NCBI GenBank assembly: GCA_903840385.1
Contig: CAIMFT010000007.1
Span: 1-43,176 of the forward strand
Length of the DNA stretch: 43,176 bases
DNA from: an uncultured Holophagaceae bacterium
GTDB lineage: Bacteria; Acidobacteriota; Holophagae; Holophagales; Holophagaceae
Direction of reading: 5' to 3'
Position 1 is the stretch's first letter, and every line of letters starts with the position of its first letter. Made by a program: the position numbers and the translations under genes. The notes under the pieces are model-generated. The model worked only from the letters and a program-made list of their open reading frames with translations. It was not told where the DNA came from and ran no database searches. Below are positions 9,101-10,060 of this stretch, in pieces.

Positions 9101-9109
9101 TGGTATGCT
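9101..9109 (+). promoter_or_regulatory. Candidate extended -10 promoter for proC leader
   Basis: TGGTATGCT fits an extended -10 element (TG-N-TATGCT). No good -35 box is visible 16-18 bases upstream, as is common with extended -10 promoters. Standard spacing would place transcription start at or very near the A of the leader ATG at 9116, giving a leaderless or nearly leaderless leader-peptide mRNA. Confidence 0.4.
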
Positions 9110-9115
9110 GGAGCC

Positions 9116-9184
9116 ATGTTCTTCCACCCCGGCCTTCCCCCGCAGCCCGGCACCCCTGGTGCCGCGGGACGATGCGCGCGCTGA
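9116..9184 (+). CDS. Candidate proline-rich leader peptide of proC
   Basis: ATG at 9116 opens a 22-codon frame ending in TGA at 9182: MFFHPGLPPQPGTPGAAGRC then A-R. Five of ten consecutive residues (5-14) are proline: P5, P8, P9, P11 and P14. The frame lies directly in front of proC, the last step of proline synthesis, and overlaps a hairpin that competes with the downstream terminator. This is the layout of a ribosome-stalling leader peptide. Proline codons are C-rich and arise easily in G+C-rich DNA, so chance is a real alternative. Too short to judge by coding statistics. Confidence 0.5.
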   Translation: MFFHPGLPPQPGTPGAAGRCAR

Positions 9185-9233
9185 CCTGATCCAGGTTTCG
9201 CCCTCCGTCCCCGCCCCCTGCGGGGTTTTTTGT
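9148..9233 (+). promoter_or_regulatory. Candidate attenuator with mutually exclusive hairpins upstream of proC
   Basis: Three pairings share segments. 1:2 is CGGCACC (9148-9154) with GGTGCCG (9158-9164), a perfect 7-bp stem overlapping the last Pro codons. 2:3 is GCGGGAC (9164-9170) with GTCCCCGC (9207-9214), seven pairs with one bulged C. 3:4 is CCCCGC (9209-9214) with GCGGGG (9220-9225), followed by six T. A ribosome stalled on Pro 8-9 would cover the left arm of 1:2 and free segment 2 to pair with 3, disabling the terminator; a ribosome reaching the TGA would cover segment 2 and allow termination. This matches the trp/his/leu type of attenuation in logic. Confidence 0.5.
9209..9233 (+). 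terminator. Rho-independent terminator before proC
   Basis: CCCCGC, loop CCCCT, GCGGGG, then TTTTTTGTT. The perfect G+C stem and T-run are a textbook intrinsic terminator, located only 14 bases before the proC start codon, which is unexpected unless it is conditional. Confidence 0.8.
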
Positions 9234-9247
9234 TCCAGGGAGCACCC

Positions 9248-10060
9248 ATGAGCCACCCCCAGCTTGCCATCCTCGGATTCGGAACCATGGGCCAGGCCAT
9301 CAGCGCCGGGCTGGTGGAGGCCTCGGGCTATCCGGCGGACCACATCCAGGCCGCTGACCTCCATCCCGCCGCCGGCAAGGCCCGGGCCGACGCGCTGGGC
9401 ATTCGGCTCTCCAGTGATGCCGAAGCCGCTGCCAAGGCCGCCGAGGTGCTCCTCCTCTGCGTGAAGCCCAAGGAGCTCAAGGGCCTTCTGGTCGGGCTCA
9501 CGGAGGCCGGGGCTCTGGACCATCACCCCCTGGTGGTCTCCATCGCCGCCGGCACCACGCTCGCCTTCCTGGCGGAGCATACCCCCGCAGCCACGCCCCT
9601 GATCCGGGCCATGCCCAACACCCCCTGCTCCATTCGCCGGGGCATGACCGTGCTGGCCCCGGGGAAGGGCGTCACCGAGGCCCAGCTGGCCCAGGCCCGC
9701 ACCCTCTTCGAGCCCCTGGGCCGGGTCATGGACCTGGACGAGAAGCACATGGATGCCGTCACCGGCCTCAGCGCCAGCGGCCCCGCCTTCATGTTCGTCA
9801 TCCTGGAGTCCCTGGCGGAGGGCGGCGTTCAGTGCGGCCTGCCCCGGGCCGTGGCCGTGGAGCTGGCCGCCCAGATGACCCTGGGCGCCGCCTCCATGGT
9901 CCTCGAAACCGGGCGCCACCCCGCTGCCCTCAAGGACGAGGTCACCACCCCCGCCGGCTGCACCATCGCCGGCCTCATGGTCCTGGAAGACGGCCGCATA
10001 CGCTCCGTCGTCGCCCGCGGCATCGAGCGCGCCACCCAGGTCGCTGCTGGGCTGGGGTAG
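9248..10060 (+). CDS. proC: Pyrroline-5-carboxylate reductase
   Basis: ProC reduces 1-pyrroline-5-carboxylate to L-proline with NAD(P)H, the final step of proline synthesis. The 270-residue length is standard. The Rossmann fold begins at once (LGFGTMG, residues 9-15), and the C-terminal dimerisation domain carries the family signature (LSASGPAF, then DEVTTPAGCTIAG). I start at ATG 9248, preceded by AGGGAG; an upstream in-frame TTG lies inside the terminator tail. It is transcribed alone: a terminator and possible attenuator precede it, and the repeat-flanked GxxExxY gene follows. No proA or proB is in the window. Confidence 0.97.
   Translation: MSHPQLAILGFGTMGQAISAGLVEASGYPADHIQAADLHPAAGKARADALGIRLSSDAEAAAKAAEVLLLCVKPKELKGLLVGLTEAGALDHHPLVVSIAAGTTLAFLAEHTPAATPLIRAMPNTPCSIRRGMTVLAPGKGVTEAQLAQARTLFEPLGRVMDLDEKHMDAVTGLSASGPAFMFVILESLAEGGVQCGLPRAVAVELAAQMTLGAASMVLETGRHPAALKDEVTTPAGCTIAGLMVLEDGRIRSVVARGIERATQVAAGLG

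Follow-up and report, generated by a model that had tools for sequence, protein, structure and literature searches.

The window, as we call the whole stretch of 43,176 nucleotides from an uncultured Holophagaceae bacterium that was analysed, carries the proC gene at 9248-10060 on the forward strand, the strand of all window features given below. The gene was assigned to pyrroline-5-carboxylate reductase by TIGR00112 (261 bits, cut-off 197), and its product catalyses the last step in proline synthesis. Upstream of proC lies a short frame, MFFHPGLPPQPGTPGAAGRCAR, of 22 codons and a TGA (9116-9184; ATG at 9116, stop codon at 9182-9184), which is probably translated leaderless. The leader promoter is represented by an extended -10 box, TGG followed by TATGCT (9104-9109), ending 6 nt before the leader ATG. 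Codons 5, 8, 9, 11 and 14 of the frame encode Pro (CCC at 9128, CCC at 9137, CCG at 9140, CCC at 9146 and CCT at 9155), which places five Pro within 10 codons and makes this control region (9128-9157) the putative stall site. The intrinsic terminator of the leader, its 3:4 pairing (9209-9231), consists of CCCCGC (9209-9214), CCCCT, GCGGGG (9220-9225) and six T (9226-9231); its stem-loop energy is -10.8 kcal/mol, and it was also picked up by a terminator pattern scan. A Shine-Dalgarno-like AGGGAG of proC (9237-9242) was found on re-reading of the sequence. The re-reading likewise located the Pro-rich frame and the terminator that a first-pass annotation of this DNA had described ahead of proC, with one correction: the distance from the end of the T run to the proC ATG is 16 bases, and not 14 as had been given.

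Scanning of the window with the sigma-70 consensus gave no full promoter, and the -10 box of the leader was recognised solely by comparison with relatives. Such a combination of features could be due to chance, if a GC-rich, C-rich stretch happened to lie ahead of a terminator belonging to the upstream gene; in a GC-rich genome such as this one, base composition brings G+C-rich stems and C-rich codons together. Yet only three of the 234 frames that begin with ATG and span 15-35 codons on either strand of the window have five Pro in 10 codons, and the frame at 9116 is the sole one that combines this with a terminator behind it and a -10 box at the right distance. Given also the conservation across genera and the recurrence before proBA described below, and the fact that a proC without a leader usually adjoins the upstream gene directly, chance is a very improbable explanation.

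The leader could also be a riboswitch or be bound by a protein, in which case the short frame would be incidental. This would fit the long conservation at the nucleotide level and the extra hairpin present at the stop codon. However, no Rfam family matched in the whole window at the gathering score, relaxed thresholds gave nothing real, and the best weak match of the leader region at relaxed thresholds was Trp_leader (18 bits), itself a leader-peptide family. For the T-box there was no Rfam match in the window at the gathering score and none among the relaxed matches of the leader region. Since the synonymous drift of the Pro codons and the matching of codons to pathways across several gene systems, both presented below, favour translation, a riboswitch or protein-bound leader is scarcely credible.

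Leaders upstream of proC and proBA in relatives

The proC genes of genus and family genomes were collected and their upstream regions compared. A proC leader is carried by 27 of the 43 Geothrix-genus genomes with a detected proC and by seven genomes of other Holophagaceae genera (g3, g7 and g9). The window belongs to a soil- and sediment-dwelling member of Geothrix, and the cultured species Geothrix fermentans has the leader (L067/L015). In most of the 16 genus genomes without a proC leader, proC stands directly behind the upstream gene. At four loci without a leader (L011, L021, L022 and L060) a T run or a small terminator-like remnant remains before proC. No comparable leader was seen in the proC upstream regions of 30 genomes from other families of the phylum, nor in that of G257 of the class.

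All proC leaders found have in common Pro-X-Pro, a hairpin immediately behind it and a terminator, with the middle residue and the flanks of Pro-X-Pro varying. The commonest leader peptide type in the genus is MILIPVIHPRPSTLSAGGSCTTS. An expanded form, HPGLPPQPGTPG, is present in the window and two close relatives, the leaders in four deep-branching genomes follow the pattern MSALHFQTPRPSLPPPGAPAGEGLS, and MTSFAFNPAPSPRPSVAGGGPGTD (g9), MTFHLAPSPCPLPRTLGAVERYGCR (g7) and MSVAPRITMPNPNPGVTAVR (g3) were found in other genera. The PRPS core is nearly unchanged across most proC leaders, and the main type is too uniform for codon selection to be tested on it alone. An intrinsic terminator was found in 54 of 54 proC and proB leaders tested. 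In 29 of the 30 proC leaders inspected, 6-7 nt separate a -10 box of the TATGCT, TATAGT or TATATT type from the ATG, L132 being unclear. This near-constant spacing predicts that the transcript would start at or next to the leader ATG, so that the leader would be translated leaderless, and it lends support to the same idea in the first-pass annotation.

In the genome of the window, proB and proA are on another contig, and a leader with the complete peptide MTAFVSFDPRPSHPAPLMGLHGV is located directly upstream of proB. It has its own terminator and a core, CCGCGCCCTAGC, which is the PRPS core seen in most proC leaders. A proB leader is present in each of the 26 genus genomes that have a full-length proB, with both Pro codons retained in 25 of them. 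The drift of the Pro codons was counted in 24 proB leaders anchored at the motif; because the proB leader sequences have drifted, the persistence of Pro can be tested informatively at this locus. The first Pro was found in 23 of 24 leaders (CCG or CCT) and the second in all 24 (CCT or CCC), the residue between them being R, P, I or N and the next residue S, N, C, G, T or A. Judged by this synonymous third-base drift at Pro and the amino-acid drift beside it, the control codons of proB are kept as Pro codons. The expectation that Pro codons would persist in relatives while the flanks drift was borne out before proC and, independently, before proBA.

The conservation of Pro could alternatively mean that the leaders encode an arrest peptide, with the nascent Pro-X-Pro stalling the ribosome on another signal, such as a drug or a low activity of EF-P, in which case it would not be the supply of proline that is sensed. 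The uniformity of PRPS in most proC leaders would suit this, and Pro-rich stretches are able to stall ribosomes (PMC8129111). A fixed motif is broken, however, by PPQPG in the window clade, by NPNPG in L123 and by SPCPLP in L063, and also by PPPS, PIPS, PNPC and PRPN in proB leaders; Pro alone is shared by all of these.

In g3 and g9 the proC stop touches the proB start, so that one proC leader would serve a proC-proB operon. G065, a g9 genome, has no leader before proC, and its proB has its own leader with the complete peptide MTSAAVRPASPRPSHLGAPERVPSA. Of the genomes lacking a proC leader, those that yielded a full-length proB have retained the proB leader; regulation at the first step of the pathway thus seems more constrained. 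As a separate observation, G008 and G018 as well as the deep-branching G011, G021, G023 and G029 have a proC leader while proB was not found by search, and these genomes may obtain proline from ornithine.

Pairing and folding of the leader RNA

In the window, the anti-antiterminator 1:2 (9139-9168) pairs 9139-9143 with 9164-9168 around a hairpin at 9149-9163 (folding energy -18.8 kcal/mol); in relatives the equivalent hairpin sits directly behind the Pro codons. In the predicted antiterminator 2:3 (9164-9214), GCGGGACG (9164-9171) pairs with CGT (9206-9208) and CCCGC (9210-9214), and C9209 is bulged. This pairing had been noted earlier as 9164-9170 with 9207-9214; it is present, with its limits now re-read. 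The small hairpin GACCTGATCCAGGT (9183-9196) begins in the stop codon and lies inside the 2:3 loop. Three mutually exclusive structures had also been described, with a 7-bp hairpin as 1:2. That hairpin (9148-9164, -11.3 kcal/mol) overlaps the 2:3 pairing at G9164 only, and on its own would hardly be exclusive with it, whereas in the folding model the extended structure of 9139-9143 with 9164-9168 is the true competitor.

The fold of the window leader has a z of -2.68. Segment 1 can also meet segment 4, a possibility that the first pass had overlooked, as 9138-9145 (CCCCGCAG) is perfectly complementary over 8 bp to 9218-9225 (CTGCGGGG), and the naked full window RNA folds as 1:4 plus 2:3, a state predicted to be non-terminated. 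An untranslated leader RNA of the window clade is thus predicted, by folding, to read through via 1:4 pairing.

To simulate stalling, the RNA was cut away as far as 15 nt beyond the first base of the second Pro codon in Pro-X-Pro. Folding gave P(terminator) = 0.00 for the window leader with the ribosome stalled at Pro and 0.99 with the ribosome at the stop codon. Before segment 4 is made, the upstream pairing of the 5' arm of the window terminator amounts in folding to 0.85 in the stalled state and 0.08 with the ribosome at the stop; the mean for shuffled sequences was 0.41, and none of 60 shuffles attained 0.85. Sequestration of the 5' arm exceeds the leader's own shuffle mean in 44 of 54 leaders (Wilcoxon p = 9e-7, which is overstated since the sequences are related). 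In 30 of the 54 the complete stalled RNA at equilibrium still favours the terminator, and these leaders would therefore need co-transcriptional kinetics, that is, the order of synthesis.

Covariation, which had been suggested as a check, was seen in the stop-codon hairpin (across 23 leaders 100% of cells are paired, and a single pair shows a compensatory change). The 1:2 and 3:4 pairs are mostly invariant G-C across the leaders compared, and there were no compensatory changes in 2:3 among the aligned leaders, its segments being G-rich and C-rich with few pairs that vary. When segments were swapped between lineages for 2:3 covariation, native pairs were not favoured in the window clade. That CCTAGCAC forms the 5' arm of 1:2 accounts for its nucleotide conservation, which speaks against an arrest peptide as the cause.

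Phe- and His-codon leaders

A covariance model was built on 23 proC leaders only and used to search 77 genomes of the family and 297 of the phylum. The model trained on proC also recovered the proB leaders and leaders with Phe codons before pheA, here the gene of chorismate mutase/prephenate dehydratase, an example being the complete peptide MTHSRRFFPFSFRTSGARVGGV. The pheA leaders have the same architecture with a terminator (L250-L258, L260-L262 and L264-L267 besides that of the window genome). The one in the window genome, MSTYRRPFLFSFRTPGARPSGI (L263), is located on contig C81 around 5700 on the minus strand, and 30 of 47 genus genomes, the window genome among them, contain the pheA leader core TTYAGCTTTCGCACC exactly. 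Outside the family, the search of the 297 phylum genomes yielded a single match, a His-codon leader with the complete peptide MFGRHHHVHHDSHRVSGWRSCA and a terminator upstream of hisG (L259) in G183, a genome of another family of the phylum. It would be a case of leader-peptide attenuation elsewhere in Acidobacteriota.

With Pro before proC and proBA, Phe before pheA and His before hisG, codon content follows the pathway, and this match is predicted neither by an arrest peptide nor by a riboswitch. The sister leaders with Phe and His codons, together with the broken Pro motifs, make an arrest peptide improbable for the Pro-codon leaders. The leaders of Geothrix, as far as their sequences go, might constitute a homologous family of leaderless attenuators, in which one RNA scaffold was re-coded with Pro for proC and proBA and with Phe for pheA. 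We hold this only tentatively and with some doubt; recovery of the proB, pheA and hisG leaders by the proC model could also reflect shared architecture and composition, and not descent.

Proposed mechanism and relation to known attenuators

We conclude that the proC leader is very probably a ribosome-mediated transcription attenuator, through which proC would respond to charged tRNA-Pro. This reading of the Pro codons was already put forward in the first-pass annotation and is strongly supported by the comparison (27 of 43 genus genomes, seven genomes of other genera and the proBA leaders). The frame, its Pro codons, the promoter spacing, the terminator and the conservation at two loci come from the sequence, and the switch between states from folding; what we infer is that the leader is translated, that ribosomes stall at Pro and that proline elicits a response. 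RNA polymerase would begin its transcript at the leader ATG or next to it, with ribosome loading on the leaderless 5' end. When Pro-tRNA is short, the ribosome would stall at the Pro codons, so that segment 1 (9139-9143) would be masked and segment 2 (9164-9171) could pair with segment 3 (9206-9214); with 2:3 formed, the terminator would be prevented and proC transcribed. With ample Pro-tRNA, the ribosome would proceed to the stop codon (9182) and cover segment 2, the 3:4 terminator (9209-9231) would form and transcription would end 16 nt short of proC. In the same genome, proBA would be controlled by the second Pro-codon leader and its terminator, and with Pro leaders at both proC and proBA the whole proline pathway would share one signal.

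Leader-peptide attenuators are known from textbooks for Trp, His, Leu, Ile/Val, Thr and Phe. Like the trp, his, leu, ilv, thr and phe attenuators, the leader described here has a short frame rich in codons of the end product, a predicted competition between three pairings, 1:2, 2:3 and 3:4, and a terminator just ahead of the first structural gene. Unlike them, it combines proline codons with proC (and proBA) in Acidobacteriota, a predicted leaderless start and few control codons (2-6 Pro). Pro-codon leaders are also known from Salmonella, where mgtL (of mgtA) and mgtP (of mgtCBR) raise transcription when proline-charged tRNA-Pro is low (PMC3641672). These are likewise short Pro-codon frames with more transcription at low charged tRNA-Pro, but their target genes serve Mg2+ transport and virulence and not proline synthesis, mgtP is equipped with a Shine-Dalgarno sequence, and the sequences are unrelated as far as seen. 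In Bacillus subtilis, proBA and proI are under T-box leaders (PMC9245794), which similarly serve proline genes, take uncharged tRNA-Pro as the signal and allow full-length transcription when proline is short. The T-box, however, binds tRNA directly without a leader peptide, and neither a T-box nor any other Rfam match was found here at the gathering score. Transcripts whose 5' end coincides with the leader ATG or is one base away, with leaderless translation of the leader peptide, are known for Sinorhizobium meliloti trpL (PMC7298713) and Corynebacterium glutamicum ilvBNC (PMC11857589). The predicted transcript start at the ATG of the present leader resembles these, whereas their codons are Trp and branched-chain ones and they belong to other phyla.

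Our literature search, in which subscription literature was thinly covered so that priority is not proven, found no leader-peptide control of proline synthesis. The principle is known; as far as we found, the specificity for proline, the phylum and the conserved leaderless start are new. If the idea of a re-coded scaffold family in Geothrix is true, a change in the amino-acid specificity of an attenuator with a constant hairpin frame could be followed. Acidobacteriota gain a specific, testable attenuation system at two proline loci, for which the Phe and His leaders provide internal controls.
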